Assembly (NCBI GenBank): GCA_002435145.1
Contig: DJLT01000110.1
Location: forward strand, 1 to 39,431
Reading direction: 5' to 3'
Source: Neptuniibacter sp. UBA6509
Lineage (GTDB): Bacteria; Pseudomonadota; Gammaproteobacteria; Pseudomonadales; Balneatricaceae
DNA: 39,431 nt
The notes under the pieces are model-generated. The model searched no databases and had not been told where the DNA came from. It was given only the letters and a program-made list of their open reading frames with translations. Both the position numbers and the translations under genes were made by a program. Each line of letters opens with the position of its first letter. Position 1 is the first letter of the stretch. Positions 649-32,838 of this stretch are shown here, piece by piece.

Positions 649-2604
649 TTGCCCATGTTTAAGGAAAATCAGCAACCAAGCGACAATGATAACGGAATAG
701 AGACAAGTAAATCCTCCTATACTGCTCCCTACCGTCATCGCGGATATAAGAAAGCACTTTACGCGCTACGTGATGCACTTGATAACCAAAATGCAGTTAT
801 TCTAAAAGGTGTTGAAGGGACTGGGAAAACAACTTTAATCTCTGAACTGATGAGCGATTATCAACGCAAAGGCGTTCCTGTTATTCGCTTTAGCTCCAAA
901 TTAACTAAAGTTTCTCAATTTTATTCCCAACTTGCTGACTGCCTCGAAGTTCCTAAACATAAGAAAGACTTAATTCGTGCTCTTCGAAATACAAAAAAAG
1001 CGGGGCAATATTGCTTAGTTGTTATTGACCAAGAAGCTATAGAATCATCTGCAGATATTGCAGAGACCTTAAAACAGCTCTGCCTGACCTCCGAAACAAC
1101 GGCAAGATCCATTAAACTCGTCGTTGTACGAAAAGACTATTTAGTAATCCACACGGAAGGAACCCCCGAAGCGGATTTTCATAACTGGATAAAAACTGAA
1201 GTCACCTTAGATCCTCTTCAAACAGATGATATTGAAGGTTATATCTACTACCTTTCTGCCATCAAAGGACTACAGCCTACTCCTTATGAGATAGGCACTG
1301 ACTTTATCATGATTGAGCAGTCAGAGGGCCGTATTAGCCGCCTGAAAGCGCTTTTACTTCCCCTTATTCATAAGGATGTGATTACACAGCGAGATTTTAA
1401 TAAATCAGAAAAAGGAAACAAACCCCTCCATTCAAACCATTCTGGAGTCATTGCTTTCACTTTCATTATTATTCTCGCTATTGGCGTAGGCATTAATCAC
1501 TTTCTTTTTTCCGATACCCCCAAACCTAAAGAAGCATTAGCCGCGGCAAAAAATAACACCGTTCCTGCTGAGCAAACTGTATTCGCGGAATCTACCGCTA
1601 GCGATAATTCAAACTATATTGTGACGCCCCCGAGCATTTCGAATATAGAAAAAGCTGAATATACTGATCTACCTATTCTAGATAGCGACATAGCGGCAAA
1701 CGAACAAACGCAACTAATCGAGAAACAACTTAAGGAGCAGCTTGAAGCAACTGCTCAGATTACGTCTGAAATAAAATCTGACAACGATGTTGAAATAACT
1801 GCCTCAATCCCTGCCACTCAAACTCAGATAAAACAAACCTCTGAAGATATTTCAGCGCTCACTCAAGATGAATTCCAAACTGAGATGAAAATACGGCTGT
1901 TATTACTAGAGCAGGAACTCACAGAAGCCGTGGTTGAAAACAACCGCCTCAAAATTGCATTACTCGAGACAAAAAATGAGAAAACCACCGAGATTATCGA
2001 GAAATCTCAACAGCAACTTCCCAACGCTGCACAAAAAAACTCAGTCACTCCTGTCAACCAAAACATCATAGACTCACCGGTGGTATCAGCCACGGAGAAG
2101 ACTGAAGAGAAGACTGAAGAGAAGCAAATGGACGTTGACCGTACACAAGACTCTAACAAAGAAGCAGCGTTTAATATTACCAGTGCAGAAACAAGCGAAC
2201 CTGAAGTTAGCGTTTCAAATTCAGGCGATAAAGAAAAACCAATGAATGATCTAGAAGCAGCCTCTAACGCTATCGCTCGTTGGGAAGAGGCGTGGCAAGC
2301 ACAGAATCATGAAATCTATTCAGACAGTTATACGGCCAGCTTTAACGGCGCTTACAAAACTCACCAGCGTTGGCTAAAGAAAAGATATGACGCCCTAACC
2401 TCTCCGGGCTGGATAAAGCTGTCCCGTAGCGAGCTTACAAATATCCAACACTCCAACTCTGATATAAAGGTAGATTTTTGGATAACTTATGAAGCAGACA
2501 ATGGCTATAAAGATAAAACGTTGAAACGGCTCAGCTTGACAAAGGTTGATGGCGAATGGCTTATTAATAAAGAACAAAATTTGCAAGTTAAACCTTTCTT
2601 TTAA
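649..2604 (+). CDS. membrane-anchored AAA-type ATPase with coiled coil and C-terminal NTF2-like (Cds6-type) domain
   Basis: A 651-residue multidomain protein. Residues 30-245 form an ExeA/DamX-like AAA-type domain with Walker A GVEGTGKT at 54-61. Its Walker B-like strand is VVIDQE at 124-129, with Q where the usual catalytic E follows the D. One transmembrane helix lies at about 266-287. A long low-complexity Glu/Thr/Ser-rich linker follows, containing a heptad-like segment around 410-445. The last 110 or so residues resemble the NTF2/SnoaL-like domain found at the C-terminus of Cds6-type L,D-transpeptidase-associated proteins. Expected topology is a cytoplasmic ATPase and a periplasmic linker and tail, which would suit a cell-envelope or cell-division role; this is inference. 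The start is either TTG at 649 (GAG spaced 8 bases) or ATG at 655 (spacing 14). The gene ends at a shared terminator with the convergent PilZ gene. Confidence 0.7.
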   Translation: MPMFKENQQPSDNDNGIETSKSSYTAPYRHRGYKKALYALRDALDNQNAVILKGVEGTGKTTLISELMSDYQRKGVPVIRFSSKLTKVSQFYSQLADCLEVPKHKKDLIRALRNTKKAGQYCLVVIDQEAIESSADIAETLKQLCLTSETTARSIKLVVVRKDYLVIHTEGTPEADFHNWIKTEVTLDPLQTDDIEGYIYYLSAIKGLQPTPYEIGTDFIMIEQSEGRISRLKALLLPLIHKDVITQRDFNKSEKGNKPLHSNHSGVIAFTFIIILAIGVGINHFLFSDTPKPKEALAAAKNNTVPAEQTVFAESTASDNSNYIVTPPSISNIEKAEYTDLPILDSDIAANEQTQLIEKQLKEQLEATAQITSEIKSDNDVEITASIPATQTQIKQTSEDISALTQDEFQTEMKIRLLLLEQELTEAVVENNRLKIALLETKNEKTTEIIEKSQQQLPNAAQKNSVTPVNQNIIDSPVVSATEKTEEKTEEKQMDVDRTQDSNKEAAFNITSAETSEPEVSVSNSGDKEKPMNDLEAASNAIARWEEAWQAQNHEIYSDSYTASFNGAYKTHQRWLKKRYDALTSPGWIKLSRSELTNIQHSNSDIKVDFWITYEADNGYKDKTLKRLSLTKVDGEWLINKEQNLQVKPFF

Positions 2605-26265: not shown

Positions 26266-27162
26266 TTAAGCGTTAAAGACACCCGTCGACAAATATCGGT
26301 CGCCACGATCACAGATAATACAAACAATCACCGCGTTCTCTAATGTCTCCGCCAAGCGCAGAGCCCCTGCGACTGAACCACCGGAGGAAACTCCACAGAA
26401 AATACCCTCCTTTTGAGCAAGCGCTTTCATTGTTTCCTCAGCTTCCTCTTGGGCTATATCGAGCACTTGATCGACACGAGTTTGATCAAAAATCTTAGGC
26501 AAATACTCTTGAGGCCAACGACGAATACCAGGAATCTGCGCACCTTCACTTGGCTGAAGCCCTACGATCTGAACATCTGGATTCTGCTCCTTTAAGAAGC
26601 GTGAAGTCCCCATAATAGTGCCTGTCGTTCCCATAGAGCTCACAAAGTGAGTAATTTTCCCCTGGGTTTGTTGCCACAACTCAGGGCCTGTACCTTGATA
26701 ATGCGCCTCGGGGTTATCCATATTTGAAAACTGATCTAATACAATACCTTCACCACGAGCCTGCATCTCTAAAGCAAGATCGCGTGCACCTTCCATTCCT
26801 TCCTCTTTAGTCACTGGAATTAACTCGGCTCCATAAGCTGTCATGGAGGCCTTGCGCTCCTCACTGGCATTATCAGGCATAATCAATTTCATCTTATAAC
26901 CCTTAATTGCCGCAGCCATAGCTAACGCAATACCCGTATTACCAGAAGTCGCTTCGATCAACGTATCACCGGGTTTGATCTGCCCACGCTCTTCCGCATG
27001 TTGAATCATGCTTAATGCAGGACGATCTTTAACAGAACCTGCTGGGTTGTTTCCCTCTAATTTACACAGAATCACATTGCCATTACCCTGGCCAATACGC
27101 TGTAAACGCACTAATGGGGTTTTGCCAACATAATCTTCAATAGTAGGAAACTGAACGTCCAT
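26266..27162 (-). CDS. cysM: cysteine synthase B (O-acetylserine sulfhydrylase CysM)
   Basis: A 298-residue fold-type II pyridoxal-phosphate enzyme making cysteine from O-acetylserine with sulfide or thiosulfate. The PLP-binding lysine is Lys45 in NPAGSVKDR. The phosphate-binding loop is seen in GTTGTIMG, and the substrate loop is TSGNTG (about 69-74). The shorter length and the GLQPSEGAQIPGIRRWP segment favour CysM over CysK. GAG lies 6 bases before the ATG. In relatives cysM commonly precedes rlmD and relA; here it is followed directly by relA after a terminator. Confidence 0.94.
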   Translation of the reverse strand: MDVQFPTIEDYVGKTPLVRLQRIGQGNGNVILCKLEGNNPAGSVKDRPALSMIQHAEERGQIKPGDTLIEATSGNTGIALAMAAAIKGYKMKLIMPDNASEERKASMTAYGAELIPVTKEEGMEGARDLALEMQARGEGIVLDQFSNMDNPEAHYQGTGPELWQQTQGKITHFVSSMGTTGTIMGTSRFLKEQNPDVQIVGLQPSEGAQIPGIRRWPQEYLPKIFDQTRVDQVLDIAQEEAEETMKALAQKEGIFCGVSSGGSVAGALRLAETLENAVIVCIICDRGDRYLSTGVFNA

Positions 27163-30318: not shown

Positions 30319-31533
30319 TCAAATCAAAACTGTTTTGATATTAATCTCGCCTTCAAGGGTTTTATGTACTGGACAGCGATCCGCAATACCGTGCAAACGC
30401 TTGCGCTGTTCCTCGGTTAGATCGCCTGTCAAAGTAATCTGCCGGATAAACTGATCAACCTTGCCACTGCTTTGTTCACACGTTGTGCAATCCTGTGCAT
30501 GTACTTTGTCATGGCTAACATCTACTTGAACATGCTCTAAAGGGATCTCTTTTTGGCGCGCATACATCCGGATGGTCATTGATGTACAAGCACCTAATCC
30601 AGCTGCAACAAGCTGGTATGGCGTTGGGCCTAAATAACTCCCTCCATAAGAAGCAGGCTCATCGGCAATCAGATGATGTCCCGCAGCACTGAGATCTTGA
30701 GTAAAACTATCTGGATCCGCTTCGCTCACCCGGGTTATCCCTTCCGGCGCATTCATCAACTTAGGTAATAGCGTAACGTCAATATATCGCTGTACCCAAG
30801 CAGAGATGAGCTCCGCAGCATACTCTGCGTCTTCAGCACGAGTAAGAAGATGATCCGCATTATCCAACGTGACAAAACTCTTCGGATGTTTAGCCATTTG
30901 GAACAGTTTAGCCGCATTATCTAGACCCACCGTTTCATCCAAAGGCGCATGCATAACGAGCAATGCTTTTTTCAAATGACTGACACTTTTCTCTAAAGAG
31001 ACTTGCGATATATCTGAGACAAAACTTCGCTTGATGGTAAAAGCACGTCCGCCCAAATTCACTTCCGCTTGCCCATCAGAACAGATCTCACTCACTTGAT
31101 GTCCAAAGTTATGCAGAACATGCTCCGGCTCAGCAGGTGCACCTAATGTAACAACCGCTTTAGCCTCAGGAACCTTTATTGCTGCGGCCAAAATCGCCGC
31201 ACCACCTAACGAATGGCCAATCAACAGTTGCGGCGCTTCATAACGCTCGCGTAAAAAACTAACCGCCTGAAGTAAGTCCTCAACATTTGAGCTGAAGCCT
31301 GTATTAGAGAACTCCCCTCCCGAATGTCCAAGCCCCGTGAAATCAAACCGCAGCACAGCAATCCCTAAAGAAGCTAATCGCTGAGCTATACGCCTTGCCG
31401 CAGGAATATCTTTTGAACAAGTAAAGCAGTGTGCAAACAGTGCATATGCGGCGGGCTTACCGACAGGCATATCCAACCTAGCCGCTAACGTTGAACCATC
31501 ATGACCTTCAAACTCTAAACGCTCAGTTCTCAT
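30319..31533 (-). CDS. bifunctional alpha/beta hydrolase-OsmC fusion protein
   Basis: A 404-residue fusion. Residues 1-255 are an alpha/beta hydrolase with nucleophile elbow GHSLGG (Ser108), acid region APLDETVG (about 218) and catalytic histidine in NADHLL (about 248). Residues 265-404 are an OsmC-like domain with the two reactive cysteines of the Ohr/OsmC fold at about 316 (GACTSMT) and 387 (DRCPVHK). OsmC/Ohr proteins reduce organic hydroperoxides through these thiols. The hydrolase may release an acyl or ester substrate for the redox domain. An extra CTTC motif (about 349-352) lies in the OsmC part. GAGGG is 8 bases before the ATG. A palindrome about 65-80 bases upstream may be its operator. 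Confidence 0.9.
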   Translation of the reverse strand: MRTERLEFEGHDGSTLAARLDMPVGKPAAYALFAHCFTCSKDIPAARRIAQRLASLGIAVLRFDFTGLGHSGGEFSNTGFSSNVEDLLQAVSFLRERYEAPQLLIGHSLGGAAILAAAIKVPEAKAVVTLGAPAEPEHVLHNFGHQVSEICSDGQAEVNLGGRAFTIKRSFVSDISQVSLEKSVSHLKKALLVMHAPLDETVGLDNAAKLFQMAKHPKSFVTLDNADHLLTRAEDAEYAAELISAWVQRYIDVTLLPKLMNAPEGITRVSEADPDSFTQDLSAAGHHLIADEPASYGGSYLGPTPYQLVAAGLGACTSMTIRMYARQKEIPLEHVQVDVSHDKVHAQDCTTCEQSSGKVDQFIRQITLTGDLTEEQRKRLHGIADRCPVHKTLEGEINIKTVLI

Positions 31534-31661: not shown

Positions 31662-31692
31662 AAAAAAGGGGAAGCCGTTCCGGCTTGCCCTT
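31662..31692 (-). terminator. Rho-independent terminator of a short Fur-controlled transcript
   Basis: On the minus strand AAGGGCAAGCCG, loop GAA and CGGCTTCCCC, with one internal mismatch, are followed by six T residues (31667-31662). No long minus-strand gene lies immediately upstream. The terminator therefore implies a short transcript from the promoter at about 31911-31939. Confidence 0.75.
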
Positions 31693-31778
31693 CAAAATGA
31701 CCAGAATAGAGCTGTGAAAAGCGATTACCAAACTAAAGTGGATGTTCTTCTACCCTTTACTAGATGTCTAGCCCATGA

Positions 31779-31877
31779 CTAGCCCGAAATTGGAAGCAGC
31801 ATAAGCGAGAGAAAAACTGAACTAAACACTACGATAAGCGGAAACTCTAAGTCCGACTTTTTAATTCGAATATTCAT
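31779..31877 (-). CDS. candidate 32-residue membrane peptide, iron-regulated
   Basis: A 33-codon frame, ATG 31877 to TAG 31779, with GGA 5 bases before the ATG. The product has a charged N-terminus (MNIRIKKSDLE) followed by one hydrophobic segment (about 12-30) and would be a single-pass membrane peptide. It lies downstream of a promoter overlapping a Fur-box palindrome and upstream of a clear terminator. I do not recognise a family. The transcript could instead, or also, act as a small RNA. A frame of this length could be fortuitous, but the composition is strongly that of a membrane peptide. Confidence 0.45.
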   Translation of the reverse strand: MNIRIKKSDLEFPLIVVFSSVFLSLMLLPISG

Positions 31878-31890
31878 AATATTCCAGTCC

Positions 31891-31939
31891 GTTAGTTAAT
31901 AATGAGAACCATTATTAACTAACAAAAACCAAATGTAAA
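31891..31939 (-). promoter_or_regulatory. minus-strand promoter overlapping a perfect palindrome with Fur box
   Basis: GTTAGTTAATAATG (31891-31904) and CATTATTAACTAAC (31910-31923) are exact inverted repeats around 5 bases. The central 19 bases (31898-31916) match the Fur consensus at 15 of 19 positions. On the minus strand TTTACA (31939-31934), a 17-base spacer and AATAAT (31916-31911) form a good sigma70-type promoter. Start of transcription would be near 31904, inside the palindrome, as expected for Fur repression. Confidence 0.65.
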
Positions 31940-32070
31940 TAGATCTCATTTACTTTTACCGCAATTACTAGATAACAATTTTATTAACGAATAATTAACG
32001 TATAATTTCACGCCTGCACTACAGCGATTTAGAAAGCTATTCGCTACACGATCTACCGAAAGGATATACC
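31940..32070 (+). promoter_or_regulatory. leader and promoter region of the aldolase-dehydratase operon
   Basis: TATAAT at 32001-32006, preceded by CG, is a perfect -10 hexamer 65 bases before the aldolase ATG. The -35 region is poor (ATTTTA at 17 bases), suggesting an activator. The Fur palindrome lies about 80 bases upstream of this -10, too far to block it directly. Confidence 0.4.
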
Positions 32071-32838
32071 ATGTTTGATTTACCGCTATTAGACCTTAAA
32101 GATAAGGTTTCTCCAGATGAATGGAAAATTCGCTTAGATCTTGCCGCCTGTTATCGCTTAGTTGAAGATCTAGGCTGGGGAGACTTAATCTATACTCATA
32201 TTTCAGCCAAAGTGCCGGGTACAGATCATTATCTTGTTAATGCATTTGGTTTAAGTTTTGATGAAGTTACAGCTTCAAATCTAGTTAAAGTAGATCTCGA
32301 GGGTAATATTCTTGACGATACTCCTTTTGATATAAACCCAGCTGGTTTTACTATTCACAGCGCTGTACATGAAGCCCGAGATGATGCTCACTGCGTTGTT
32401 CATCTACACACCAACGCAACCATTGCGGTATCAACACTTAAAGAAGGTCTTCTGCCTTTATCTCAGTACTCATGCTTCTCCCTTTCCTCTTTAGGCCATC
32501 ATGGTTATGAAGGTTTAGCAGTCAATAGCGAAGAGAAAAAGCGCTTACAAAAAGATATGGGAATAAATAACCACCTCCTACTTCCTAATCACGGAGCCCT
32601 CACTGTTGGTCCAAGCGTCGGCGATGCATTTATGCGTATGTACGACCTACAACGGGCATGTGAAATACAGTTATTGATCCAAGCTACAGGTGCAGAAGCG
32701 ATACCTGTGGCACCTGAAATTGTTGCAGGCATTAAAAAACAAGCCAATGTGGTCCACTCAGGCTCTACAGGTGGACAAAAGTCTTGGCCTGCAATGTTAC
32801 GTAAAGCATATCGTCTTGACCCTGGTTTCGCATCTTAA
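32071..32838 (+). CDS. class II aldolase/adducin family protein
   Basis: A 255-residue protein of the class II aldolase/adducin fold. Zinc-ligand histidines are visible in VVHLHTNAT (about 109-117) and LPNHGAL (about 171-177). The N-terminal GWGDLIYTHISAKVPG matches the phosphate or substrate loop of the family. Relatives include L-fuculose- and L-ribulose-phosphate enzymes and non-phosphorylated keto-acid aldolases. AGGA is 6 bases before the ATG. The next gene, an enolase-superfamily dehydratase, starts 48 bases on, so this enzyme could cleave the 2-keto-3-deoxy sugar acid that the dehydratase makes. Exact substrate unknown. Confidence 0.85.
   Translation: MFDLPLLDLKDKVSPDEWKIRLDLAACYRLVEDLGWGDLIYTHISAKVPGTDHYLVNAFGLSFDEVTASNLVKVDLEGNILDDTPFDINPAGFTIHSAVHEARDDAHCVVHLHTNATIAVSTLKEGLLPLSQYSCFSLSSLGHHGYEGLAVNSEEKKRLQKDMGINNHLLLPNHGALTVGPSVGDAFMRMYDLQRACEIQLLIQATGAEAIPVAPEIVAGIKKQANVVHSGSTGGQKSWPAMLRKAYRLDPGFAS

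Follow-up and report, generated by a model that had tools for sequence, protein, structure and literature searches.

The gap between an alpha/beta hydrolase gene (30319-31533, minus strand) and a class II aldolase gene (32071-32838, plus strand) holds a candidate microgene whose short open reading frame is, on comparative evidence, a real gene, and which is probably controlled by Fur. The window, by which we mean the whole stretch of DNA that was analysed, is a complete contig of 39,431 nucleotides from a 3.88-Mb assembly that is 91% complete. By computation, the coding sequence is conserved, a Fur-like box recurs, the promoter is conserved within the genus, one helix is predicted and the neighbours change between genomes. 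We consider it reasonably likely that the microgene is free-standing and encodes a single-helix microprotein of the inner membrane; it would be repressed by iron-Fur and switched on when iron is short, and its product would act on a larger membrane protein. The elements of the microgene are given below by their positions in the window.

31911..31939, minus strand: sigma-70-type promoter, TTTACA-17 nt-AATAAT; TTTAC and ATAAT are invariant in the genus copies (n = 8).
31939-31934, minus strand: -35 element TTTACA, followed by the 17-nt spacer and the -10 element.
31916-31911, minus strand: -10 element AATAAT, from the sequence scan.
31898..31916, no strand assigned: predicted Fur box over the -10 element and start point, matching GATAATGATAATCATTATC at 15/19 positions and recurring 5' of the peptide in relatives.
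31891..31923, no strand assigned: perfect 14-5-14 palindrome enclosing the Fur box, from the inverted-repeat listing; its outer arms are peculiar to the window copy.
31935..31950, no strand assigned: possible second, weaker Fur-like site across the -35 element, AATGAGATCTATTTAC, suggested by eye.
31779..31877, stop included, minus strand: 32-codon open reading frame, MNIRIKKSDLEFPLIVVFSSVFLSLMLLPISG, for a product of 32 aa with one predicted transmembrane helix.
31662..31686, minus strand: intrinsic terminator, AAGCCG GAA CGGCTT followed by CCCC and a T run, from the terminator scan; the hairpin is also present in the predicted fold.

An earlier note, made from the sequence alone, had described a -35/-10 pair at 17-base spacing, a perfect 14-5-14 palindrome that spans the -10 element and start point and matches the Fur box at 15/19 positions, an open reading frame with a one-helix product and a Rho-independent terminator, and our scans recovered all four on this strand. 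The frame is read from 31877 to 31779, with one helix modelled at residues 7-31, and the terminator stem occupies 31686-31672 with the T run after it. The palindrome arms (31891-31904 and 31910-31923; 14 nt, 100% complementary, 5-nt spacing) are the only perfect pair among the eight inverted repeats listed in the window at the settings used. The Fur-box consensus GATAATGATAATCATTATC is the basis of our 19-position scoring, and 31898-31916 is the one site in the 39.4-kb window that matches it at 15/19 or better; a search of the window for the canonical 19-mer with three or fewer mismatches returned no matches, because this site carries four. The promoter pattern taken alone is at chance level in the window (two found against 1.6 expected), one terminator turned up where 0.4 were expected, and the ribosome-binding site is weak in the window copy, with GGAGG present in eight of the 23 copies described below. 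The elements nevertheless rise above chance, because the peptide is conserved in 23 of 116 genomes of the family, with codon change dominated by third positions and with Fur-box enrichment.

Conservation of the peptide was followed with two profiles. The first, a 12-row alignment of genus and family matches, found weak copies in two further genera at E-values of 0.001-0.04 (G026, G027, G111, G112, G114 and G115), while the second, a 19-row alignment in which these weak copies were included, matched 23 of the 116 family genomes at E ≤ 4.3e-6, with one match in each, the next match standing at E 3.7e-3. The second-round scores of the weak copies are not independent, because those copies had entered the 19-row model; independent support for them comes from the first-round matches, the upstream boxes, the start sites and synteny. 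Carriers comprise eight of the 11 genomes in the genus of the window (g1), four in g2 (G015, G016, G026, G027), G104-G108 in g15 and six in g16 (G109-G112, G114, G115). The profile search found no peptide in the three other genus genomes (G005, G006 and G007), which retain the aldolase. Third-position changes equal or exceed those at first and second positions together in 14 of 14 close pairs, and NG86 dN/dS lies between 0.03 and 0.32 in the 13 of these pairs where it is defined; some sequences recur among the 14 pairs, which are therefore not mutually independent. Judged by this pattern of substitution, the peptide codons are under purifying selection. The peptide is conserved across related genera and is therefore probably a genuine small protein.

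The 23 copies are 25-37 aa in length and share a distinctive core. Pro13 and Leu23 are invariant, position 12 is Phe in 18 copies and Tyr in five, and a small residue (Ala, Gly, Ser or Cys) occupies position 19 in 22/23, position 20 in 22/23 and position 24 in 18/23. Charged residues C-terminal to Pro13 are absent from every copy. The N-terminal net charge is +1 to +3 in 15 copies and 0 or -1 in the remaining eight, which leaves the topology uncertain. AlphaFold, run on the single sequence, returned one helix over residues 7-31 with a mean pLDDT of 86.2, and on this model the peptide is predicted to be a single-helix membrane protein; the periodicity of conservation along the helix was not significant (p 0.27, with row G109 mis-anchored). 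The earlier note had recognised no known family for the peptide or the RNA, an impression borne out across Pfam, NCBIfam, PHROGs, PADLOC, PDB and Rfam. Among the 23 members the best E-values were 0.041 in Pfam and 0.011 in NCBIfam, from matches in one or two members, and no family in either collection fits. We recognised no report describing the peptide in the open-licence PMC literature.

In the mechanism that we infer, from Fur binding and induction to topology and contact with a partner, iron-loaded Fur would occupy the box across the -10 element and transcription start, obstructing RNA polymerase, and loss of iron would release Fur and allow transcription; for these steps of block and release the support comes from sequence only. 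The resulting mRNA, ~240 nt long, would run as far as the terminator. Its product would insert in the inner membrane, with the N-terminus, which is usually positive, in the cytoplasm and with its span beginning at the invariant Pro13, and the small-residue patch (positions 19, 20 and often 24) beside the invariant Leu23 would contact a larger membrane protein. A metal transporter, a sensor kinase and a respiratory complex are the candidate types of partner, and the activity or stability of that partner would be adjusted during iron starvation.

The same helix could belong to a part and not to a regulator, namely a small structural component of a membrane complex for respiration or iron uptake, recruited at low iron. 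Known membrane complexes include single-helix subunits of similar size, and a lone helix bearing a patch of small residues and the invariant Pro13 and Leu23 would suit such a role. However, we recognised no complex of this kind among the neighbours covered by profile search or by reading, which are part of those in the 19 mapped genomes, and the best match of the peptide profile to PDB sequences, to a stretch of cytochrome b6f subunit 4, reaches only E 0.53. We regard a structural subunit as unlikely.

RyhB and PrrF are short Fur-box transcripts that end in an intrinsic terminator, and the earlier note had entertained a small RNA of this kind for the window. The Fur-like promoter, the short length and the dedicated terminator of the microgene are the points of likeness, and the open reading frame would then be incidental, or a minor second function of a dual-function RNA. 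This proposal fared poorly, and we consider it quite improbable. The eight aligned genus copies hold no conserved block 3' of the stop codon, the codons appear to be under purifying selection, and the predicted fold is unremarkable (z -1.46, with 17 of 200 shuffles matching or exceeding its stability). Rfam returned nothing at gathering score, its two matches (E 0.12 and 0.88) falling far below the gathering scores. The window gene thus differs from RyhB and PrrF in conserving codons and not RNA, and a RyhB/PrrF-like RNA as the main function was rejected on the missing post-stop conservation, the fold and the lack of a fitting Rfam family. A simple scan found a terminator-like hairpin within 260 nt after the stop in nine of the 23 copies. 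In G026, G027 and G016 this hairpin is very clear and starts 4-6 nt past the stop. Of the regulatory RNAs, ryhB of E. coli O157:H7 is reported to encode a nonapeptide, RyhP (PMC5331693), and this speaks for the RNA proposal. RyhP resembles the window peptide in coming off a short iron-starvation transcript, but as described in that report it has 9 aa and an ATT start and is borne on an established regulatory RNA (PMC5331693).

The size and hydrophobicity of the product would also suit a membrane-active, toxin-like peptide under Fur control, as in type I toxin-antitoxin pairs. The distribution of the peptide argues against this: it is present as a single copy per genome at real scores, searches with the 23 members gave no match in PADLOC and nothing better than E 0.056 in PHROGs, and tblastn found no match in the plasmid and phage collections. 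A toxin-like function is highly improbable on these grounds.

The Fur-like box recurs with the peptide. In the 150 nt 5' of the start, the best 19-mer reached p ≤ 0.05 in 18 of the 23 copies when set against Markov-resampled (shuffled) sequences and in 16 of 23 when set against local windows. A significant upstream box was absent by the shuffles in G104, G105, G109, G110 and G114, and by the local windows in these five and in G015 and G016. The upstream box outscores every other position in nine of the 23 loci, which are 3-39 kb long. The Fur score alone fails to separate the members (12-16) from lookalikes (9-13) and from G007 (13). Within the genus alignment the Fur core is mostly retained, while the palindrome arms beyond it vary among congeners. 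The earlier note had named the joint disappearance of palindrome and peptide frame from close relatives as counting against the gene. This is seen in three of the 11 genus genomes (G005-G007) and not in the other eight, although the outer palindrome arms are specific to the window copy.

The genome of the window encodes a Fur-family protein (PF01475, 135.5 bits, G000:C124) and a second, weaker member of the family (47.8 bits). The Fur-like pattern was found 58 times in this genome against 61 for a reversed-pattern control, and 72 against 62 in another pattern run; because these counts lie near the control, the genome's own regulon gives no positive control for the motif. A clear iron regulon was not evident near the own-genome Fur-pattern loci (30 loci, with five at contig edges left out). 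One such site, at G000:C90 ~12437 (L263), is a 15/19 Fur-like box ~75 nt 5' of an open reading frame that by eye resembles frataxin/CyaY. The suggestion of the earlier note that this is an iron-repressed small gene finds good support at the level of sequence comparison, in the conserved peptide, the purifying selection, the recurrent Fur-like box and the presence of a Fur protein in the genome.

Since the aldolase start (32071, plus strand) lies on the other strand ~160-195 nt from the peptide in all eight genus genomes that carry it, the box might instead serve the divergent aldolase, with the short frame as a by-product. This arrangement can be compared with that in G005, G006 and G007, which retain the aldolase and have neither the peptide nor a good box. 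The best Fur scores in the 700 nt 5' of the aldolase are 12, 12 and 13 of 19 in these genomes, respectively, against 14-16 of 19 in the genus copies with the peptide. The G005 assembly is only 88% complete, and 13 against 14 is a small difference; a TATAAT element persists by eye 5' of the aldolase in G005 and G007. The box therefore seems tied to the peptide and not to the aldolase. Other genera have the peptide and box with the aldolase cluster absent within 7 kb, and the codon selection on the peptide is a further point against a by-product, so that a box serving the aldolase is scarcely probable. In G005 (L237) and G007 (L239) a cysteine-synthase-like gene, assigned by eye, is directly divergent from the aldolase; the window has a PALP-family gene at 26266-27162, so the intervening stretch appears to have been inserted or lost in one lineage.

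Neighbouring genes were mapped in 19 genomes, with Pfam run on one member per cluster and on two for mnmG. In g1 the divergent aldolase lies beside the peptide in 8/8 copies and the downstream genes vary. In G104 and G106-G108 the divergent gene encodes a cation P-type ATPase, and an M3 peptidase gene lies downstream on the opposite strand. In G105 (FP type) and the four mapped g16 genomes (YP type; G111, G112, G114, G115) the peptide precedes one common gene, which shares its strand, by ~2-2.6 kb; that gene is mnmG by Pfam in G105 and G112, and in the g16 genomes a BatD-like gene is next downstream of the peptide. GGDEF/EAL-type genes are the neighbours in g2 (G026, G027). The peptide is found in at least four distinct genomic settings, and no neighbour cluster is common to all genera across the 19 genomes mapped, an argument for a stand-alone gene that acts in trans; for the same reason the context points to no partner. 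No sensor kinase adjoining the peptide was recognised among the selected neighbours that were profile-searched. A leader peptide or attenuator for a downstream gene would have its short frame between promoter and terminator, as here, but was rejected because the downstream genes change between genomes, several of them facing the opposite way (e.g. in G002, G003, G004, G008, G106 and G107), and with the conserved residues at hydrophobic helix positions it has next to no probability.

Some further features of these loci were recorded. In G112 (L179, 8273-10206) a divergent gene for a 125-aa protein without a Pfam match is followed by a fumarase C gene, and the shared intergenic region may serve both directions; the clusters of these two proteins lie farther from the peptide in G111 and G114. 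An iron-responsive fagA-fumC arrangement is described in Pseudomonas (PMC3377617), and the divergent pair in G112 resembles that operon, although equating the 125-aa protein with fagA is a guess. The window hydrolase is fused to an OsmC domain, and the protein is 86% identical to its counterparts in N. pectenicola and Neptuniibacter sp. PT1. Its relatives are mainly from Rhodobacterales among the 80 kept in a scan of named genomes, no copy of the peptide was found in the 80 named loci around them (stretches of 3-13 kb), and no match to the hydrolase was confirmed in viral contigs. Near the contig end, a 651-aa protein (649-2604, plus strand) has weak AAA/STAND NTPase matches.

Beyond the family, no convincing copy of the peptide was found in the order sample (391 genomes, including some from the family itself) or in the class sample (370 genomes), and diverged versions beyond the reach of the profile are possible there. 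Seven non-family genomes of the order sample had matches at E ≤ 0.02, of which four were inspected and the other three lie in frames of at least 359 aa; in the class sample 16 genomes besides that of the window had matches, eight of which were inspected, with the other eight in frames of at least 166 aa. With four further ones added, 16 lookalikes were inspected in all, and the same microgene was not seen among them; their best upstream Fur scores were 9-13 of 19, with 14 at 12 or below and two at 13. An earlier, looser search of the order sample, run with the first model, reached E ≤ 1 in 195 of its 391 genomes, a rate taken as chance level, with few of the matches inspected. We see an even chance that the peptide represents a family of membrane microproteins that is new and uncatalogued, has so far been found in one marine gammaproteobacterial family, is encoded by stand-alone genes under Fur control and, during iron starvation, directly tunes a transporter, a sensor or a respiratory complex of the inner membrane.

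Proteobacterial iron-starvation responses have been described mainly through uptake systems and small RNAs. If the reading of the microgene as a Fur-controlled membrane microprotein is true, the product would form a protein arm of the iron-starvation or iron-sparing response beside the classical small RNAs, and would offer a compact handle for finding the membrane protein that needs adjusting at low iron. The microgene keeps its Fur-like promoter at differing genomic sites in different genera. It is too short for usual gene calling, and the combination of a Fur box and a short conserved frame can recover genes that annotation has missed.

One comparison is with small proteins that regulate metal transporters when metal is depleted. 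MgtS and MntS respond to Mg2+ and Mn2+, respectively, and not to Fur, and differ from the window peptide in this respect and in that none of the 23 members of the window family is fitted by a Pfam or NCBIfam family. The likeness lies in their size and role: in E. coli, MntS (42 aa) and MgtS (31 aa) are described as acting under metal depletion, MgtS on PitA and MgtA and MntS on the Mn exporter MntP (PMC10710835, PMC4361602). A second comparison is with SbiT of the Stenotrophomonas maltophilia sbiTRS operon, which comes from a Fur-regulon study, has one predicted transmembrane domain and is proposed there to act through intramembrane contact with the kinase SbiS (PMC9769818). The Fur link, predicted for the window peptide, and the single predicted transmembrane domain are the points of likeness; SbiT is, however, co-operonic with its partner, whereas we recognised no kinase among the profile-searched neighbours of the window gene. 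With no claim of family membership, we suggest by analogy that the MgtS/MntS-type transporter regulators and SbiT are the nearest functional analogues of the window peptide.
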